Made by a program: the position numbers and the translations under genes
Shown here: one piece after another, positions 9,229-21,573 of the stretch
Layout: each line of letters opens with the position of its first letter
How positions within the stretch are numbered: the first letter of the stretch is position 1
Notes under the pieces: model-generated
The model's input: only the letters and a program-made list of their open reading frames with translations
Told to the model about the DNA's origin: nothing
Database searches by the model: none
DNA from: Gavia stellata
Taxonomy: Eukaryota; Chordata; Aves; Gaviiformes; Gaviidae
Length of the DNA stretch: 64,000 bases
Direction: 5' to 3'
Assembly (NCBI RefSeq): GCF_030936135.1
Contig: NC_082595.1
Span: 112,608,334-112,672,333, forward strand

Positions 9229-10893
9229 GCATCCCACATCCCAGCCCTGCATCCCGCATCCCAGTCCTGCATCCTGCATCCCAATCCCACATCCTTCATC
9301 CCACATCCCAGTCCCGCATCCCAGCCCTGCATCCTGCATCCCAGTCCTGTATCCTACATCCCAGCTCTGCTTCCCAGCCCTGCATCCCGCACCCCAGCCC
9401 CGCATCCCTCATCCCAGCCCTGCCTCCTGTGTCCCTGCCCGAGGTGCCAGGCCCGAGGAAAGAGCTTTCTCCCTGCCGGCCTGCTGGGGCTGGGCACTTC
9501 CCCCTGCCCTCTCCTGCCTCTCCTATCCTCCATCCCGCACCCTGCGTCCCAGTCCTGCATCCCTTATCCCACATCATGTACCTTGCATCCCGCATCCCAG
9601 TCCTGCCTCCTGCAGCTCACATCCTGCACCCTCCATCCCACATCCCAATCCTGCATCCCGCATCCCACTCATATAGCCTGCATCCTGCATCCCAATCCTG
9701 AACCCCTATCCCACGTCTTGTACCCTCCATTGCACATCCCAATCCTGCCTCCTGCATCCCACAAAATTACTCTGCATCCTGCATCCCAGTCCTGCATCCC
9801 ACATCATGTGTCCTGCCTGCATCCCGCACCCCAATCCTGAACCTGTATCCTACCTCCTGTACCCTCCCTCGGGCATCCCAGTCCTGCATCCTGTATCTCA
9901 CATCCTGCATGCTGCATTCTACATCCCAATCCTTTGTCCCAGTCCTGTATTCCACATCCCAATTCTGCATTCTGTATCCCAATCCTGCATCCCACGTCAT
10001 GCACTCTGCATCCCACATCCCAGCCCTGCATCCTGCATCCCAGTCCTCTATCTTGCACCCCAGTCCTGCATCCCTGCCCTGCATCCCGCACCCCAGCCCC
10101 ACATCCCTCATCCCAGCCCTGCCTCCTGCATCCCAGTCCTGCATCCTGTGTCCCAATCCTGCATCCCAGCTCTGCATCCCAGCCCTGCCTCCTGCATCCC
10201 TGCCCTGCATCCCGCATCCCAGTCCTGCATCCCACATCCTGCATCCCGCATCCTGCATCCCAGCCCTGCATCCCGCATCCCAGTCCTGCATCCTGTGTCC
10301 CAGTCCTGCATCCCAGCTCTGCATCCCAGCCCTGCATCCTGCATCTCAATCCTGCATCCCGCATCCCAATCCTGCATCCCAGCCCTGCCTCCTGCATCCC
10401 TGCCCTGCATCCCGCATCCTGCATCCCGCATCCCAGTCCTGCATCCCGCATCCCAATCCTGCATCCCAATCCTGCATCCCAGCCCTGCATCCCGCATCCC
10501 AGCCCTGCCTCCTGCATCCCTGCCCTGCATCCTGCATCCCGCATCCTGCATCCCGCATCCCAGCCCTGCATCCCGCATCCCAGCCCTGCATCCCGCATCC
10601 CAATCCTGCATCCCAGCTCTGCATCCCAGCCCTGCCTCCTGCATCCCTGCCCTGCATCCTGCATCCTGCATCCTGCATCCCTCATCCCAGTCCTGCATCC
10701 CTCATCCCAGTCCTGCATCCCGCATCCTGCATCCTGCATCCCAGCCCTGCATCCCGCATCCCACTCCTGCATCCCAGCCCTGCATCCCGCATCCCTGCCC
10801 TGCATCCTGCATCCTGCATCCCTCATCCCAGCCCTGCATCCCGCATCCCAGCCCTGCATCCCAATCCTGCATCCCAGCCCTGCCTCCCGCACC
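9229..10893. repeat. Large CATCCC minisatellite upstream of KIF3C
   Basis: About 1.7 kb of tandem repeats, interrupted by unique DNA at roughly 9435-9530. Two modules alternate irregularly: a 7-mer CATCCYG and a 13-mer CATCCCAGYCCTG; one of each gives a 20-bp unit. The marker phrase GCCCTGCCTCCTGCATCC recurs near 10118, 10188, 10379, 10503 and 10628, which points to a higher-order repeat of about 70-190 bp. The + strand is C-rich. The minus strand carries GGG runs separated by 2-5 bases, fitting the G-quadruplex rule many times. Long open frames with Ile-Pro-His-Pro or Gly-Met-Arg-Asp-Ala repeats are by-products of the array. It ends about 60 bp before the first promoter motif. Confidence 0.95.
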
Positions 10894-11700
10894 CCCGCCC
10901 CGCACTCCCGCCTCCCCCCCCCCCCCCGCCGCGGCGCAGCACAAAGGCGGGACTACAGCTCCCGGCCTGCCCGGGGGGGGCCGGTCCCGCCCCGCGCCGC
11001 CGCCCGCCCCCGCCCCCGCGCGGCCGCAGCCAATCAGCCGCGCCGCCCGCCCCCGCGGGCCCCGCCCCGCCCGCCCCGCCCGTCCCCGCGCGCGGGCGGG
11101 GCGCAGCGGCCGCGCTGCCATGAGCGAGCGCCCGGCGGGGCCGCCCCGCCGCCCCCCGCCCCGCCGCGCCCGCGGCCCCCGCCCGGCCCCGGCCCCGGGG
11201 ATGCCCCGGGGGCAGCGCGGCTGAGCCGCCCCGCCGCCCGCCACCGCCCGCCGCCGCCGCCGCGCCCGGCCCCGCCCGCCGCCGCCATGGCCGGTAAGTC
11301 CCGCAGCGGCTGCGAGGCGCTGAAGGTGGTGGCCCGGTGCCGGCCCATGAGCAGGAAGGAGGAGGCGGCGGGCTACGAGCGCGTCCTGGAGCTGGACGTC
11401 AAGCTGGGGCAGGTGAGCATCCGGAACCCCCGCGCCGCCCCGGGCGAGCTGCCCAAGACCTTCACCTTCGACGCCGTCTACGACGCCAGCTCCAAGCAGG
11501 CGGACCTCTACGACGAGACGGTCCGGCCGCTGATAGACTCGGTGCTGCAGGGCTTCAACGGCACCATCTTCGCCTACGGCCAGACCGGCACCGGCAAGAC
11601 CTACACCATGCAGGGGGCCTGGGCGGAGCCGGAGAAGCGGGGCATCATCCCCATCTCCTTCGAGCACATCTTCACCCACATCTCCCGCTCGCAGAACCAG
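10890..11700 (+). promoter_or_regulatory. KIF3C: KIF3C CpG-island promoter and 5' UTR
   Basis: A very GC- and CpG-rich segment runs into coding exon 1. Visible elements are ACTACAGCTCCCG (10952-10964), matching the ACTAYRNNNCCCR promoter motif linked to ZNF143; a CCAAT box on the + strand (CCAAT at 11030-11034); and repeated GC boxes (CCGCCC and GGGCGGGGC, about 10995-11105). No TATA box is seen. The transcription start is probably between about 10960 and 11110, inferred from motif positions. The start codon at 11287 has a strong Kozak context (GCCGCCATGG). Confidence 0.75.
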
Positions 11701-12699
11701 CAGTACCTGGTGAGGGCCTCGTACCTGGAGATCTACCAGGAGGAGATCAGGGACCTCCTCGCCAAGGACCAGAGCAAGAAGCTGGAGCTGAAGGAGAACC
11801 CCGAGACGGGGGTGTACATCAAGGACCTCTCCTCCTTCGTGACCAAGAACGTCAAGGAGATCGAGCACGTGATGAACCTGGGGAGCCAGACGCGGTCGGT
11901 GGGCAGCACCAACATGAACGAGCACAGCTCCCGCTCCCACGCCATATTCCTCATCACCATCGAGTGCAGCGAGACGGGGCCGGACGGCGAGGAGCACATC
12001 CGCGTGGGCAAGCTCAACCTGGTGGACCTGGCCGGCAGCGAGCGCCAGAGCAAAATGGGGGCCCACGGAGAGCGCCCCAAGGAAGCGTCCAAGATCAACC
12101 TCTCCCTCTCCGCCTTGGGGAACGTCATCTCCGCCCTCGTGGACGGCAAGAGCACCCACATCCCCTACCGGGACTCCAAGCTGACCCGCCTGCTGCAGGA
12201 CTCCCTCGGGGGCAACGCCAAGACCATCATGGTGGCCACCTTGGGCCCGGCCTCTCACAGCTACGACGAGAGCCTCTCCACCCTCAGGTTCGCCAACAGG
12301 GCCAAGAACATCAAGAACAAGCCCCGGGTGAACGAGGACCCCAAGGACACCTTGCTGCGGGAGTTCCAGGAGGAGATTGTCCGCCTGAAAGCCCAGCTGG
12401 AGAAACGCGGCATGCTGGGGAAGAAGAGGAGAAGGAGCAGCCGGAGGAAGAAAGTGGTGGATGGAGAAAGCGCCACGGAGAACGAAGGGGAGGACGACAA
12501 CGAGGACGGCCTGGAGAAGAACATGGAGAATTACTTGAAGGAGCAGAAGGAGAGGCTGGAAGAGGAGAAGGCGGCCATCCAGGATGACCACAGCCTGGTC
12601 AGTGAGGAGAAGCAGAAGCTGCTGCAGGAGAAGGAGAAGATGATAGAGGATCTGCGGAAGGAGCAGGAGGCCACGGAGCTGCTGGCCACCAAGTACAAG
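11287..12699 (+). CDS. KIF3C: KIF3C coding exon 1 (whole motor domain)
   Basis: This exon holds residues 1-471: the entire motor domain, the basic-acidic linker and the first part of the coiled coil. The donor is AAG|GTACGT at 12700, phase 0. The reading frame is also open upstream into the minisatellite (from 9934), but similarity to KIF3C begins at the ATG in strong Kozak context at 11287 (MAGKSRSG, then [11 protein letters not shown]). Codon third positions are almost all G or C. Loop L11 (residues 253-266) lacks the long Gly/Ser insert of mammalian KIF3C. Confidence 0.96.
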
Positions 12700-15600
12700 G
12701 TACGTGTCGCCACGCGCCCTCGCGAGCGATGCTGGGGGAAGCCCTGCTTTGCCTCCAGCCCCTCGTGGGGTGCGTGAAGGGGTCCCAAGCAGGGTGCCCG
12801 AGCAAGGTCCCCGAGCAGGATGTCCGAGCAAGGTGCCCAAGGGCAGCCCCGTGCTCCCGTGTAGCGGTGGGCTGGGGTCGCCCTCAGACGCGGACCTGCC
12901 TGGGGACCTTGTGCGGGAGCTCCTGCGGGTGGGAAGGGCCGTGAGGGAGTGGATCGTTGGTGGCATGAGTTTGCTGTGCTCAGCTCTCGTCCCTCCTCGG
13001 CACAACAAAGCATCTTGCAGCGGGGTGGGGGGGGGAGTGATGCTGCAGATTCGTCCCCCGTGGCCCCGGGAACACGCCCAGGGCTGGGGCTGGGGACGCG
13101 GCACCGCCTGCCCCCCCGGTTCTGCCCCCCGGTTCTGGCCGACCCCACGGCTCCCACGAGCCCGCAGGGCTCCGCTGGGAACGGGCAGGGCTGCGAGCCC
13201 GCAGGCAGGGCCTGGCAGCTCTGCAGGGACCCCTGTCCCCCTTCCCCGCCTCAAATCCTTCCTGGCACCCCCGAGCCGGAGCGGGGCGGGTGGGGGCACG
13301 TTACTGGCACCCTCCAGGTGTTGCACGCCACCGGCTCAGGGGTGCTGGGGAACGCGGGGCTGAGCACGAGCGGGGTCGCGGCAGCCCCAGCCCAGCCCCA
13401 GGCAACCGTGCTGCGGGTCCGGGGCCGCATCACTGTCCCCCCCACCCCAGCCCTGTCCCCGGTGAGGCTGGGGGGTCCCGACCCACTCCCACCCACCCGC
13501 AGCTGCTGCGGGGCCGGCGTGAGCGCAGGGCTGGGACGACGGTCACGGCAGTGGGGAAGGAGCCCCAGCACCCTGACCTGCCGCGTCACACTCCGGCACA
13601 GCCCCTCCGTCACCGTGGTGGCCCGGATGCGGTGGCCGGGCTGGAGACCTGGCACGGAGCCCTCCAGGCGGAGACGTGCCCGGGGTGTCGGTCCCTGCCT
13701 GGGAGTTCAGGGGCTGAGCAGGGGGATGCTCTCGTGCTCTCCTCCATGGCCAGAGCCGTGTTTGGTGCAGCCCCAGGGATGCGTGGCCGTGCCCAGGGAT
13801 GCGTGGCCGTGCCCAGGGATGCATGATCATTCCCAGGGATGCGTGGCCATGCCTGGATGCCTGCACAGAGACCCGCAGGCTCACGCTGGGACATGCCGCC
13901 GGAGCGAAGCCGTGGGAGCGACACCGTTCGCTGGCTGGCATGACGGATGTCCCGTGATGGGTGTCCCGGTGGAGCAGGATGCTTGGCGCAGAGGTGGGCT
14001 CCCCGCAGCCGTTTCCCCCACCACTGCGGTGGAGTGCAGGTTGTCGCTGGCAGCCGTCCCGCGCGGTCTCCTCGTCCGGCACGGCGCAGCGGGGCTGGCT
14101 CGGGGCCACTGCGTGTCCTGTAACTGCTGAGTAACGAGGCAGGACCGGAGGCGAGATGACGCCGCATCCCTTTTGGTGGCCTTTGGAGCCGCTCCCCACG
14201 CTGGGACCCTCCAGGCACGGGGGTATGGTACAGTCACACCAGCGAGGTATCGCCCCAGGGGGCAAAAATCCCCCCTGTGCCAGCGATGGAGGGGCAGATC
14301 CTGCCATGACGCTCACCCCTCTGGGCACTGCCAGGGGCCTGCGTGGGGGGACGTTGTGGGGGGCACTGGGTGGCTTCCCGGTGCCCGCGGGCGTCTCCGC
14401 CACGCAGCGGGACCAGGCAAGGAGCCCCCGGCATGAAAAGAGCCGTGTCCTGCTCATGCGTTTTAACGGCTCCATAGTGACCACGGCAAAGGCAGCCGTA
14501 GTGACTGGTGGGACACGGGGTGCCCCACACACACGCGGGTGACGCGCGCTGGACCCCGTCTCCCCGTCGTGCTCATGGACGTCAGCTCTGCCTCTGCCGC
14601 CTGGCACAGCTGGGGCCCGGCCCCACCGACCAGCTGGGACGTGGCAGCAGCATCGAGCTCGGAGAGGCGGGGGCCAGCCCGCCCCGGCAGATGTGCACCT
14701 TGGCACCCAGATGTGCACCTTGGCGCCCAGATGTGCACCTTGGCGGAGGGGCTGTGCTGCAGCAGCAGGCTGCGGGGGAGCCCCTGCCCCGGCTTGCCCA
14801 GGGTGCTGGGTGCGGCTGCTCCGGACCCCTCGCCCGGCGGCTCTGCCTGGTGCCGAGGCCGGGGTCAGCGGGCGGGAAAGTGCCGGGGAAGTTATTTGGG
14901 TGCCGGAAATGAGTTGCCATGAGAGGCTTAGCATTCAATCTGTCCCACGCGCTAAAGAAGATTGGGAGTTGTCTTCGTTAAAGGGAATAAATACTTTGGC
15001 GGGGAGAAAACATCAGCGCTAAGAAGCCCCTTAATCCCCCGGCGAAGGCGGTAGCTGGCGGTGAACCGTGCGGGGAGGGCTGGCAGCACCGTGCCCTGGC
15101 CAAGCATCGTCCCAGCACCTGCCCGGTCCCCCCCGGTCCCCTCCCTGCTCCCACCTGGTACCGCTGGGGCAGGATGCGCCCCAGCAGGGCCCAGGGGCCA
15201 CGGGCCAGCACGGCGTGCAACTGGGACCAGCCAAGAACCAGCTTTGGAGGAGGAGGTGTGAGGGGCGGGGGGCCCCTAGAGCCCCAGTGCCCCCAGTCCG
15301 GCTGCCCCGGGCATGGCATGGGGCTGGGCAGGGGGGGCTGCCCTTGGGGGTCTCAGCCCGGTGGCTTCCCGGCAAAACGCCCTGCCAGTGGCACCCAACG
15401 CAAGGTGGTGGGGCCAGGAGGAAGGATGAATCCCCGGTGTCGGGGGGCGGGAGGGTGCAGCAGAGTCGGGGGGGCTGTGTGCCCCACAGCAGTGAACGGC
15501 TGTGAGGGTCTCAGGGGGGCGGGGGAAGGTGGGAAGTGGTGGTATGTGGTGGTATGGTGGGATGTGGCGGTTGTCCCACGGGTGCTGGGGGGGCGCTTGC

Positions 15601-18600
15601 ACACCCCTAAAACCCCACCCTGCGCACTCCCGCAGCCGTCCCGCCGGGAGTGGGGCCGGGAAGGGGAGAAAATGGGAAAAACGGGAATGGAGTATGGCCC
15701 CAGCTAGCTGTCGGTGCGAACGGCGCTCTGCGGTTTGCCTGAGCACCCACCTCTGTGCCCAGGACGGTGCTGGGGTGCGGCCAGGGGACACAGCACCCCC
15801 AGAAGAGCCCTGCCCAGGGGTGGCATCGATGAATGCCACGTGTGCCCCCCCCCCCAGCGCCAGCGTCCCCCTTGGCGTGGTGTCACGGCCCTCCTGCCTG
15901 GGAGGGCCTTGGCGATGGCAGCGGGGGGGGGGGGCCCAGGTGCGGCGGGGAGCAGGGACGGAGCTCCGCATTCGGGGCTCTCAATTCAGGGGGTGCAGGG
16001 GGACCCCAGGCATGCATGCCTGTGGGTGAGGGCAGTCACGTGCTGGTGCGGTAGCGGTCAGCGGCTGGCAGGGACACCCTGGGGACGGCGGCGGGCGGTG
16101 CTGCCGCTGGCGCTGTCTGGGAGATTAATTTTTAAAGCCGTGTGTGGTGGCGTTGGGATGTCTGGATCCATCCCCACTCACGCCCCTGAGACGCAGCCGT
16201 GGGGGGCAGAGGGTGCCCCCCCGCAGTGCCAGCCACACTGTCCCGCTGACACGGTGACGCGGCTACGGGTGTGCATGCACGCTGTGCACGGGTGCACACG
16301 CATCTGTGTAGCAGGCTCACATCATGCATGGGTGCGCACAGACACCCGGCGTTTGTACACGCACCGGCACGCGTGTACACGCGTATCCGGCATGTGTGCA
16401 CAGAGCCGGCACGTGTGTGCGCACCGCTGTGCCTGTGCACACACATGGGCATGCATGCGTGTGCGCCCATGAGCGTACTGATGTGCGTGTGCATGGGGTA
16501 GAGGGGAGTGTGCCTGTCTGTGAGCGTAAACATCTGCACGCTTGGGCGTGTGTGTAGAAATGTGCATGTGCATGCGTACGAGTGCGTGTGTGTGCAGGGG
16601 TGTGACTGCGCACAGGCACGTGCATACGTGTGTGCACGTACACGTATGTGCGTGCGGGAGGGCAGCCATGGGACAGGGGAGCCCCTTTCCCCAGGGAGGC
16701 AAAGGGAAACGCAGCTGGGGTGGGATGGAATGGGTGGGATGGGACAGGGTGGGATGAGGGGGTCGGGCAGAGCCCCTCCGCCCAGCTCTGCACGGCTCGG
16801 CACGGCTTGGCACGGATCAGCATGGCTTGGCCACGGGTGGGCATCCGGGGCCGGGGCCCCGCTGCCAGCAGCTGCTGCACATCCGCGGCGTCCCGCGGGC
16901 TCGCAGCTGTGCGGAAGGAAGCGGGACCCGAAACAGCCTGGGCTCGGCGCCAGCAGCCCCACGCCACGTCCCTGCGGAGGGGGCACGGCACGCGCAGCCC
17001 CCGCTCCAGCCCCCGCCGCTGCGCCCGGCGGCGCTGAGCCGGCCCCAAGCTCGTTGGCATCCATGCGCAGCCCCCTCCCCATTAGCTGGGGATCGAAGCG
17101 TGTGTCGCACCGAAAGCTCCCACCTCCCTGAAACCAGGGTGAGGACAGGGTGCCCAGGACGGGGACCAGGGACGGGGTGACCACCTGGTGAGGATGGCCT
17201 GGGGCAAACCCCGTGGGGCCGTGCTGTGACCCCCCACCCCGCTCTGTCCCTCCCAGGCGATGGAGAGCAAGCTGCTCATCGGTGGCAGGACCATCGTGGA
17301 CCACACGAACGAGCAGCAGAAGATGCTGGAGCTGAAGCGGCAGGAGATAGCCGAGCAGGTAACGGCACGGGGGCCTGACCCGGCTTCGGCGGGCGACAGG
17401 GGCGTCCCGGGGGGCCGGTTCCCCCTCCCGGCTCTGAGAGTTTCCCCCTGCGCTGCAGAAACGCCGGGAGCGGGAGATGCAGCAGGAGATGTTGCTGCGG
17501 GATGAGGAGACCATGGAGCTGCGGGAGACGTACACCTCCCTGCAGCAGGAGGTGGAGATCAAAACCAAGAAGCTGAAGAAGGTGAGAGCGTGGCAGGCGG
17601 CGACGACCGTCCCTCCGGCCGCCGGAGCCCCGGGGCTGACCGCAGCCCCCGAGGCGCGGGGCTGAGGGGCTGCTCCTCTCCCCCAGCTGTACGCCAAGCT
17701 GCAGGCCGTGAAGGCGGAGATCCAGGACCAGCACGACGAGTACATCCGCGTGCGCCAGGACCTGGAGGAGGCGCAGAACGAGCAGACGCGGGAGCTGAAG
17801 CTCAAGTAGGTGGTCGTGCGTCCCCCGCGCCTGGGCACAGCTGTGAGGGGTGTGCAGGGCAGAACTGGGGTGCACACAGCAGAGCTGGGTGCTCAGAGCA
17901 GAGCTGGGGTGCTCAGAGCAGAGCTGGGGTGCACGGAGCAAAGCTGGGGTGTGCAGCTGGAGGGAGCGATACGTCTGCTGACAGGGACAACTGAGCGCTT
18001 CCTACCCCGTCAGCGGTGGCAGAAGGTGTAAAACATATTTAACTCTCTTGCGCTGGGTGAGTCGCATGCAAGAGTATTAAAAAGTTGCTGAGAAAGGTGA
18101 AAAACCAGAAAATACACAAGGAGAAACGGCAGCAGAGCAGCAGTGTGGGCTACGGCTGAGCTACGGGACGTGGCGGTGGTGGCTGGAGGTAAGCGTCCCC
18201 CGAGGGCACCCGGAGACCTGCTCCGGCCCCAGCGCGGTCCTCGGAGGGAGAGCAGCTTCGGGGGGACGCGGGGTGAGCCCCGGCCCCGCGGGGGCTCCCG
18301 GCACGACAGTGGCAGCCGGCAAAGCCGGGCAGCGTTTTCCCTCCAGGAACCTCCCAGCAGGAGATGCAGCTGCTGGTCCACCGCCTTTCGTGGGTTTGTT
18401 TCCACTTCAAACAATCTTATTCAGTATCTTTAAAAAACCCCACCTATGTATATATATATATTTTAGCATTTTCAAGATAACATATTTATACTTTTACTAG
18501 GAACTAAATTGCGTTTCAAATTTTGCCACCTTTCCCTTCGAACATGACTCAAACTTTTTAAAAGCCGGCAACTCAATGAAGCAACTCAGCGACTCGAAAC

Positions 18601-21573
18601 AATTTTCTGCAGCTGCTCAATTTGCCCCAAAAAAATGGGGAAAAAAAGATTCCCTTTGGGGTCCGTTTTGCATCATTGAGCTTCCCTTTATTTCCTTTAT
18701 TTCCTGGTTGGGCAGCTGGGGGAGCGGACGGGTGCGGAGAGGAGACGGGGGTCCCTGCCTGGAGGAAGTGTCCTTGCTTGGAGAGTGTCCTTGCTCCTCT
18801 CTGATGACCGTCTTCCTCTGCGCTCCCTCTCCTGCCTCTCTCGCCTCTCTGTCGGCTGGATCTATTGCTTCAACCTCTCCATTTCCGTCGTGTTTCCATC
18901 TTCTGGATGTTTTCCCATTTCCTTGTGTCTCCCTCTCTTCCTGACGTCCCTTTCCGACCTGTTTTCTGGCACTTGTCACATTAACTCCTTCTTCTCCTGC
19001 TCCTTCCCACCCCCTTGCTCCCGCCCCGTCTCTCTCTTGGCCGGTCACTCGCTCAGGTACTTGATCATCGAGAACTTCATCCCACCGGAAGAGAAGAACA
19101 AGATCATGAACCGCCTGTACTTCGACGGTGAGGAGGACCAGTGGAAGTTCCAGCCGCTGGTGCCCACCGGAGGGTACGTCCCGGGCCCCGACCCACCCTC
19201 TGCCCCAGCGCTGCCGACCTGCAGGCACGAAGCCTCTGCCTGTGGGGCAGGGATGTCCCCGGGGCTGGGCGGGCATCGGGGACCCCGGGATGCTTGCAGG
19301 TGTCTACGGGTGGAAATCCTCTCCAAGCCAAGCCCCACCAGCAAGGGCCACCCTTCACTCCCTGTCGATGAGCTCCATTCGTCACTGTTTGGATGCGTTT
19401 TGAGCAGGAATTTATGTTCTCCAATAAATGTTCCTCTCTTAATGTATTTTTTAGAAACAGCAACCAAATGAAGAAGCGGCCTACCTCTGCGGTGGGGTAC
19501 AAGAGACCCATCAGCCAGTACGCCCGCGTGGCCATGGCCATGGGATCTCATCCTCGGTACCGGGTAAGTGAGAGGGCGCTGGTGCGTGCCGGCGGGACAA
19601 GAAGTCATTGGATAAATGGGATGGATAAATGGGATGGAGGGAGGGAGGGAGGGAGGGAGGGAGGGATGGATGGATGGGTGGGTGGGGGGTGGGAGGGTGG
19701 GTGGATGGATGGTTGGATGGTTGGATGGATGGGTGGGTGGATGGATAGAGGGTTGGATGGATGGATGGATGGTTGGATGGATGGATGGTTGGATGGATGG
19801 GTGGTGGGTCGGTGGGTGGGTGGATGGATGGATAGATGGTTGGATGGATAGATGGTTGGATGGATAGATGGTTGATGGATGGATGGTTGGATGGATCGAT
19901 GGTTGGATGGATGGGTGGTGGGTCGGTGGGTGGGTGGATGGATGGATAGATGGTTGGATGGATAGATGGTTGATGGATGGATGGATGAACAGTGGGAGAG
20001 AAGATGGAGTAAACAACCTCACGATGATTTGAGATAGGTCAGATCAAGCTCCCAGCTTTATCCTCCCACTTGGCAGGATCAGTGGCCGTGCTCTCAGCCG
20101 GTCCTTGAGCTGCTGGCTCACTGGCGCTGGCAGCTCCTGCCATTTGAAAGGACAGGGACATTCAGCTTTGCATGCTGACTCAGCCCCAGGCAAGACCAGA
20201 AGAGCCTGAGCAGGGCAGGGAGCCTCCGCTCCAGTTTGGAGTTTGCCCTGAGGCTGCGGCAGCCAGAGAACGGTCCCACTCCCCGGTGTGCCAGTCAGCT
20301 TCTCTCCGCAGTGTGGACTTGCCGGAGCTGGTGCCGTGTTTTGCCACGTGGTGACTCCCCGTGTTGGCCTTCTCTTTGCCCTGTCCTGCTGCAGGCTGAG
20401 AACATCATGTTCTTGGAGCTGGACCTCTCCCCTCCGGCCATCTTCGAGTTTGAGCGGAGCAGGGACCCGGCAGAGCAGGACCCCCGGGCTCTCCACCTGG
20501 AGAGGCTGATGCACCTGGACAGCCTCCTGGAGCGGCCGGCGGCCTCCCGGGTGAGGAAGTCCCGCTCCTGGTGAGTGCTGGCGGCGGGGGGGATGCGGGG
20601 GGCTGCGGCGTGGCTGGAATGCTGTGTGTGGGGCAGCACATGGGCTTGGAGCGGGCGGAGGAGTCACGGCGGAGCTGTAAGCCCCCTTTTGGGGTTGAAA
20701 CTGGCCATGAGTTGTTGGGGTGCGATCAGATTTTAAAATACGGCTGACATTGCTTTGGTAATGGTTGTCGGATGCGTATTAAAACCAAGGTGATGATGTC
20801 ATATATCATCATATACATCTCAGCACAGGGAAGACATGGACCTGTTGGAGCGGGTCCAGAGGAGGCCACGGAGATGGTCAGAGGGCTGGAACAGCTCTGC
20901 TGTGAGGACAGGCTGGGAGAGATGGGGTTGTTCCGCCTGGAGAAGAGAAGGCTCTGGGGAGACCTTCCTGCGGCCTTTCAGTACTTAAAGGGGGCTTGTA
21001 GGAAAGATGGGGAGAAACTTTTTGGTAGGGCCTGTAGCAACAGGACAAGGGGGAATGGTTTTAAGCTAAAAGAGGGGAGATTCAGACCAGATCTAAGGAA
21101 GAAATTCTTTACAATAAGGGTGGTGAAACCCTGGCCCAGGTTGCCCAGAGAGGTGGTAGATGCCCCATCCCTGGAAACATTCCAGGTCAGGTTGGACGGG
21201 GCTCTGAGCAACCTGGTCTGGTTGGAGATGTCCCTGCTCATGGCAGGGGGCTGGACTAGATGGCCTGGAAAGGTCCCTTCCCACCCAATCCATCCTGCGA
21301 TTCGATGATATATCCCACATGGTAAGACACACGGTATCGTCCTGCCCGACACTGGGTGTCCTTTTGTGCTGCCCGCGTAGCAAATGACTGAGAAAATGTC
21401 TGGATTTTGGGGAGAGCGGGAGGCAGGGGAAGGGGAAGGAGAAGGAAATCAGGTTTTCTCTGTTCGTCTCCCCATCCAGGTGCCAGACGCCGCGGTCGCT
21501 GCCATCCTCAACCACGCATGTCTCCCTCACCTCCAGCTCCCCGTGCACCGCCACGATGCCAGCTCAGGAGTGA
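11287..21573 (+). CDS. KIF3C: Kinesin-like protein KIF3C (kinesin-2 motor subunit), 8 coding exons
   Basis: Joining 11287-12699, 17257-17358, 17459-17581, 17687-17805, 19057-19173, 19455-19563, 20395-20570 and 21480-21573 gives 750 codons plus TGA. All introns are GT-AG and all frames agree. Motor domain, residues about 10-345: P-loop GQTGTGKT (98-105), switch I NEHSSRSH (211-218), switch II DLAGSE (247-252). A basic patch [12 protein letters not shown] (378-389) and an acidic stretch (393-409) precede a coiled coil (about 410-590). The rest is the C-terminal tail. KIF3C dimerises with KIF3A, or with itself, and moves cargo toward microtubule plus ends, mainly in neurons. Identity rests on family-specific stretches recalled from the mammalian protein, such as [21 protein letters not shown] and [20 protein letters not shown], and on a matching C terminus. 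The human protein is about 790 residues; the difference lies mainly in loop L11 and the acidic linker, both shorter here. Confidence 0.96.
13771..13856. repeat. Minisatellite in KIF3C intron 1, 20-bp unit
   Basis: Four full units and a partial one, in exact 20-bp register: CCCCAGGGATGCGTGGCCGT, GCCCAGGGATGCGTGGCCGT, GCCCAGGGATGCATGATCAT and TCCCAGGGATGCGTGGCCAT. The CCCAGGGATG core resembles the unit of the array at 5955-6440. Confidence 0.9.
14689..14748. repeat. Three-copy 20-bp repeat in KIF3C intron 1
   Basis: Three adjacent units of AGATGTGCACCTTGGCACCC, with the second and third differing at one or a few positions. The near identity suggests recent duplication. Confidence 0.9.
14880..15045. 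other. Lower-GC island in KIF3C intron 1, possible conserved element
   Basis: A non-repetitive block with mixed composition, including GTTATTTGGGTGCCGG, AAAGGGAATAAATACTTT and CCTTAATCCCC, stands out in a GC-rich intron. It has no splice-flanked open frame. It may be an intronic regulatory element; this rests on composition only. Confidence 0.25.
16258..16665. repeat. CA/GT/GC alternating purine-pyrimidine tract
   Basis: About 400 bp dominated by CACG, GTGT, CATG and CGTG words, with many short palindromes such as TGCATGCA, ACGCGT and GTGCAC. Long runs alternate strictly between purine and pyrimidine, the pattern that favours left-handed Z-DNA. Open frames through it encode Cys/His/Thr/Val-rich low-complexity peptides and are not credible proteins. 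Confidence 0.85.
17257..17358 (+). CDS. KIF3C: KIF3C coding exon 2
   Basis: Thirty-four codons, residues 472-505, starting [11 protein letters not shown] and including [19 protein letters not shown] of the coiled coil. Acceptor CAG|GCG, donor CAG|GTAACG, both phase 0. Confidence 0.96.
17359..17458 (+). other. KIF3C: KIF3C intron 2 (100 bp)
   Basis: A very short, GC-rich intron with donor GTAACG and acceptor TGCAG. It and intron 3 (105 bp) are close to the practical minimum for vertebrate introns. Confidence 0.93.
17459..17581 (+). CDS. KIF3C: KIF3C coding exon 3
   Basis: Forty-one codons, residues 506-546, from [11 protein letters not shown] to IKTKKLKK. This is coiled-coil sequence rich in Glu, Gln and Lys. 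Acceptor CTGCAG|AAA, donor AAG|GTGAGA, both phase 0. Confidence 0.96.
17687..17805 (+). CDS. KIF3C: KIF3C coding exon 4
   Basis: Residues 547-586, from [19 protein letters not shown] to RELKLK, the end of the coiled coil. The donor must be AA|GTAGGT at 17806, phase 2: the next GT, at 17810, would place an in-frame TAG before the splice. The split Lys codon is completed by the G that opens exon 5. Confidence 0.94.
17852..17958. repeat. Minisatellite in KIF3C intron 4, 20-bp unit
   Basis: About five units of the type GCTCAGAGCAGAGCTGGGGT. Two adjacent copies (17891-17930) are identical; the flanking ones differ at a few positions and one is 19 bp. The array begins only about 45 bp after the exon 4 donor. 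Confidence 0.9.
19057..19173 (+). CDS. KIF3C: KIF3C coding exon 5
   Basis: Residues 587-624 plus the first two bases of codon 625: [19 protein letters not shown], then a less conserved [19 protein letters not shown]. It marks the junction between coiled coil and tail. Acceptor CTCAG|G, donor GG|GTACGT, phase 2. Confidence 0.95.
19455..19563 (+). CDS. KIF3C: KIF3C coding exon 6
   Basis: Completes codon 625 and encodes residues 626-661: [18 protein letters not shown], then [18 protein letters not shown]. This segment is strongly conserved in KIF3B and KIF3C tails. Acceptor TTTTTTAG|A, donor CGG|GTAAGT, phase 0. Confidence 0.95.
19606..19990. repeat. GGGA/GGAT microsatellite in KIF3C intron 6
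   Basis: It opens with a pure (GGGA)n run (about 19637-19666), then GGAT, GGTT and GGGT tetramers up to about 19990. A segment of roughly 70 bp starting at 19787 recurs at 19901, giving a 114-bp higher-order duplication. The open frame on the opposite strand that reads Ile-His-Pro-Ser repeats is produced by the tetramer and is not a gene. Confidence 0.93.
20395..20570 (+). CDS. KIF3C: KIF3C coding exon 7
   Basis: Residues 662-719 plus two bases of the Trp codon 720: [14 protein letters not shown] through [20 protein letters not shown] to VRKSRSW. This is the KIF3C-type tail; KIF3B diverges after ENI.LLELD. Acceptor CTGCAG|GCT, donor CTG|GTGAGT, phase 2. Confidence 0.95.
20823..21315 (+). mobile_element. 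CR1 LINE 3' fragment in KIF3C intron 7
   Basis: A 5'-truncated CR1 in sense orientation. Typical phrases are GGCTCTGGGGAGACCTTCC, GTACTTAAAGGGGGCTTGTA, AGAAATTCTTTACAATAAGG and AACCTGGTCTGGTTGGAGA, ending in CCCAATCCATCCTGCGATTCGATGAT, a decayed form of the ATTCTATGAT tail. Identity to the usual avian CR1 3' region is high by eye. Confidence 0.93.
21480..21573 (+). CDS. KIF3C: KIF3C coding exon 8 and stop
   Basis: Completes Trp720 and encodes residues 721-750, [20 protein letters not shown] then [10 protein letters not shown], then TGA. The Ser/Thr/Pro-rich end matches the mammalian KIF3C terminus, which has WCQSPQ and a Ser-Thr-Thr-His block. The acceptor is CCATCCAG|G. Confidence 0.92.

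Follow-up and report, generated by a model that had tools for sequence, protein, structure and literature searches.

A KIF3C ortholog of Gavia stellata with a short, kinesin-2-type loop L11

Loop L11 of kinesin motors runs from switch II to helix α4 and links contact with the microtubule to the release of ADP. A long L11 is treated as a signature of KIF3C, and the KIF3C insert that lengthens this loop has been tied to microtubule binding. A motor gene of Gavia stellata raises the question of whether the long loop belongs to KIF3C as such or to some of its lineages. In this gene, the original prediction saw KIF3C with a short L11 in place of a mammalian insert put at 'about 25' residues. We analysed the gene in a window of 64,000 nucleotides (C2:112608334-112672333, contig NC_082595.1) that contains no N and comes from a genome of 1.32 Gb.

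The window contains an intact KIF3C gene of eight coding exons on the + strand (11287-21573), encoding a protein of 750 amino acids. The gene model was predicted from sequence, and exons 2-8 were located with a human KIF3C tail sequence. Coding exon 1 (11287-12699) begins with the ATG at 11287, and its frame spans the whole kinesin motor as far as the GT donor that follows 12699. This exon encodes residues 1-471, comprising the motor domain, the neck linker, the hinge and the start of the stalk. Coding exons 2 to 7 were placed at 17257-17358, 17459-17581, 17687-17805, 19057-19173, 19455-19563 and 20395-20570, respectively, and exon 8, together with the stop codon, at 21480-21573. All seven downstream exons have AG acceptors, the internal ones have GT donors, and the frame is kept throughout. 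Two types of tandem repeat were observed around these exons: C-rich minisatellite arrays with units near 20 bases, of the TCCCAATCCTGCATCCCACA type, at 9229-10888, ~0.4-2 kb upstream of the start codon; and a GGAT array of about 93 units at 19619-19987, in the intron between coding exons 6 and 7. A RAB10 sequence found no match within the window.

The identity of the gene was established from its motor and its tail. Among the best 60 of 152 PDB matches to the exon 1 frame, human KIF3C (3b6v) ranked first with an E value of 2.9e-204, and the second-closest solved chain was human KIF3B (3b6u). Over 353 motor positions, the protein is identical to human KIF3C at 313, to the KIF3B of its own genome at 288 and to human KIF3B at 284. 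A KIF3C-type stalk and tail are also present: exons 1-8 align with human KIF3C up to the C-terminus, and the two proteins are nearly collinear over this region. The earlier assignment of the remaining motor, linker and tail to KIF3C was therefore upheld by the 313/353 identity and by the close match of the stalk and tail to the human sequence. Unlike KIF3B, the protein has a 21-residue KIF3C-type stretch, the LRFANR motif and a KIF3C tail, although the KIF3B of this genome shares with it an acidic hinge. KIF3B is encoded elsewhere in the genome, by a motor exon on C20 (L001) whose frame is open, and this locus and KIF3C are the only two of the 133 genomic kinesin matches listed that cover the Pfam motor profile end to end. 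No second KIF3C was found among the 49 matches of a protein search with the L11-to-neck region, in which 150 of 179 candidates were scored. The gene is an ordinary KIF3C ortholog, in a state left out by mammal-based descriptions. We did not treat a long L11 as defining KIF3C, because the orthology rests on the remaining gene.

The short L11 is a real feature of this gene. Between SERQ and GERP, the loop reads SKMGAH, six residues as compared with 30 in human KIF3C (3b6v). The human loop is thus longer by 24 residues, close to the size that had been given for the mammalian insert, and the extended Gly/Ser-rich form seen in human KIF3C is absent here. An alignment with MAFFT set the 24-residue gap just past SERQSKM, at the codon border 12057/12058. 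The short region occupies residues 251-269 (12037-12093, + strand), of which the interval first reported, 12043-12084, is a 14-residue core. Exon 1 is a single uninterrupted frame, and no splice-like sites emerged when 12000-12130 was searched with a crude pattern. We also considered an assembly artefact, in which a 72-base GC-rich low-complexity insert was dropped. The exon is indeed GC-rich (63%, and 95% at third positions), and Gly-rich coding DNA is generally known to be hard to sequence in some cases. Such a drop would, however, need to have produced a loop of precisely the family length, in frame and with the family residues; moreover, the window is free of N and the minisatellite arrays at 9229-10888, ~0.4-2 kb upstream, were assembled. 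We consider an artefact highly improbable. A short-loop KIF3C exists in nature, and the long loop cannot define KIF3C.

To place the two loop forms in the family, we compared the length from DLAGSE to INxSL in other kinesins. This length is 17 residues in the KIF3C described here and 41 in human KIF3C. The same 17 residues were counted in loci of this genome that were named by sequence resemblance as KIF3B (L001), KIF17 (L005) and KIF3A (L013/L033), as well as in C. elegans OSM-3 and Giardia kinesin-2. A protist-like kinesin-2 in a public contig (L039) is also short-looped; here the pattern is broken by a stop, and the residues were counted by eye. Within the genome, 16 distinct kinesin loci including KIF3C fitted the pattern, a count that leaves out loci with an intron-split loop or with landmarks missed by the pattern, and 14 of the 16 have 17 residues as read. 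The exceptions were L012, with 16, and L025, with 48 through a short read-through intron and 17 when spliced by eye. Since the same short loop recurs across the other kinesins read, short is the usual state and the long loop of human KIF3C is the exception. In addition, the K, G, A and G at the L11 positions common to KIF3A, KIF3B, KIF17 and OSM-3 are all present in this KIF3C.

These comparisons bear on the two histories that had been put forward, a gain of the insert by mammals and a loss in birds. Gain is favoured, by outgroup length and residues, and loss is disfavoured, because the other kinesin-2 loops read share one length and a loss would have to restore that exact length together with K, G, A and G. 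An older insert, already carried by the last ancestor that mammals share with this animal and later deleted on the line of the latter, would draw on the ability of Gly-rich repeats to contract, which is general knowledge, and two KIF3C sequences alone cannot fix the branch of the change. Nevertheless, it would need the removal of exactly 24 codons without a remnant, leaving a loop of precise kinesin-2 length with the four residues of KIF3A, KIF3B, KIF17 and OSM-3, and we judge such a deletion improbable. This intact KIF3C ortholog has very probably retained L11 in its ancestral kinesin-2 form. As judged from outgroup kinesins and parsimony, with two KIF3C orthologs compared (this one and the human one), the likeliest history is a gain of the insert by the human line once it had split from the line of this animal. 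On the mammalian line, the Gly/Ser insert perhaps arose as a GC-rich repeat expanded within the large coding exon 1.

The 19 residues that follow the loop had been described as resembling KIF3B. The likeness is real, inasmuch as both the KIF3B of this genome and human KIF3B (3b6u) have the same L11 length and identical residues at these 19 positions, but it is not specific to KIF3B, as KIF3A and KIF17 of the same genome are similar. The stretch from INLSL through DSLGGN is likewise identical in protein sequence to the KIF3B of this genome, as would be expected had gene conversion by KIF3B overwritten the L11-L12 stretch in this lineage. At the DNA level, fourfold third bases in residues shared by the two genes agree at 3 of 15 sites across residues 251-310, no higher than the 25 of 84 over the whole motor, and a recent conversion is not supported. 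P264 and S268, which are common to human KIF3C and absent from KIF3B, have also been retained. A conversion so old that its trace at silent sites has been lost could still have occurred, yet we give conversion overall a very small chance. The KIF3B likeness of this protein stretch is best read as conservation.

We then asked whether human KIF3C departs from the family outside the loop. With human KIF3B and the KIF3B of this genome as outgroups, 19 private changes were assigned to human KIF3C and 6 to the Gavia protein over 353 ungapped columns (two-sided binomial p=0.015). Five of the 19 fall at residues 282-288 (12130-12150, + strand), where SALVDGK corresponds to AALAGNR in human KIF3C; these residues are presumably the end of helix α4 and the start of loop L12. 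A test for this cluster gave a P of about 0.001, post hoc and with all sites treated as equal. When the five clustered changes were removed, the counts were 14 and 6, which do not differ significantly (p about 0.12, by hand), so faster change across human KIF3C as a whole is weakly supported. The private-change counts therefore indicate that the departure of human KIF3C is clearest in L11 and the L12 end of α4. Compared across the family, ISALVDGK reads as the common kinesin-2 state and the human IAALAGNR as derived, and the substitutions at the end of α4 and in L12 may have accompanied the gain of the insert. The hinge differs as well: its acidic part in the Gavia protein comprises 18 residues (12457-12510, + strand), and the hinge of human KIF3C appears to be ~20 residues longer. 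A PDB search with the hinge returned a single match, a KIF3C-EB chimera that apparently ends before the hinge.

The position of L11 allows some expectations of how this motor would behave. Guzik-Lendrum et al. in 2015 reportedly shortened L11 of KIF3C in mouse KIF3AC and obtained longer runs and higher microtubule affinity, with velocity unchanged. Like that construct, the protein described here combines a KIF3C motor with a short L11; unlike it, the short loop is natural, whereas the engineered motor is reportedly otherwise mammalian in sequence. If these reported effects hold, the Gavia motor should act like the engineered one. Given the coupling role of L11, tighter microtubule binding and longer runs than those of mammalian KIF3AC would be expected when this motor is paired with KIF3A, bringing it nearer to KIF3AB. 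The kinetics of KIF3C were worked out on mammalian (mouse) motors, as described in PMC7948976. According to the same paper, the engineered mouse homodimer KIF3CC is slow: it moves at 7.5 nm/s, whereas KIF3AA reaches 293 and KIF3AC 186, and its association with microtubules is slower than that of both. In KIF3B, residue E250 lies at the C-terminal end of switch II, and a rigor mutation, E250Q, is known at this site (PMC11043552). In our reading, E250 is the Glu of SERQ, directly ahead of L11.

A comparison of long- and short-loop kinetics has reportedly already been made by engineering, and KIF3C predictions for many vertebrates are publicly available, such that aligning them would reveal the loop length of each. 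What this locus adds is a natural short-loop KIF3C, in which the insert is set apart from all other KIF3C features and which provides a native motor with which kinetics can be compared. Among the papers listed in a literature search conducted largely outside subscription papers, we recognised none on loop L11 of KIF3C or on its occurrence across vertebrates. The accessible parts of PMC7948976, PMC10522663, PMC6065180, PMC12527917, PMC11643619, PMC10715920 and PMC11043552 contained no mention of the KIF3C L11 insert.

The short loop may also bear on the division of labour between KIF3C and KIF3B. In zebrafish, kif3c is redundant with kif3b in the cilia of photoreceptors and hair cells (PMC3555730; PMC10715920), and an overlap of the two in cilia is also described in PMC11643619. 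By contrast, KIF3A/KIF3C is thought to work mainly in neurons (PMC11043552). A short-loop KIF3C may be relevant to this difference, and the zebrafish redundancy would fit a KIF3B-like ancestral KIF3C. Taken further, the L11 insert, the change of SALVDGK to AALAGNR and the longer hinge could be one coordinated remodelling on the mammalian line, from a KIF3B-like, cilia-competent motor to a slow neuronal one. We put this forward tentatively, as a rather unlikely scenario. If it were true, non-mammalian KIF3C could still replace KIF3B, as zebrafish kif3c reportedly does, and mammalian KIF3C could not.

Searches beyond the locus yielded several minor observations. In public viral contigs, KIF3C found no match. 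No further vertebrate KIF3C was recognisable in public genome contigs, which returned two loci, L039 and L040, the latter a weak match of 47 residues. L039 (JAQTXT010000095.1) is filed under a Rickettsiales metagenome-assembled genome. In-frame stops interrupt the kinesin-2 that it encodes, several of them at positions where Gln or Glu is expected; the contig is probably contamination from a ciliate or similar organism with a changed code. Finally, the genomic matches listed include dozens of copies of a partial kinesin motor that covers Pfam positions of about 56-168 (...GYNATLLAYGQTGSGKSYSM...) and occurs on contigs C116, C269, C286, C311, C314, C348, C767, C775, C971, C972, C980 and C993. 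Eight copies (L041-L048) are 98.2-99.7% identical over 0.74-1.2 kb, and the partial motor looks like a recently amplified unit.
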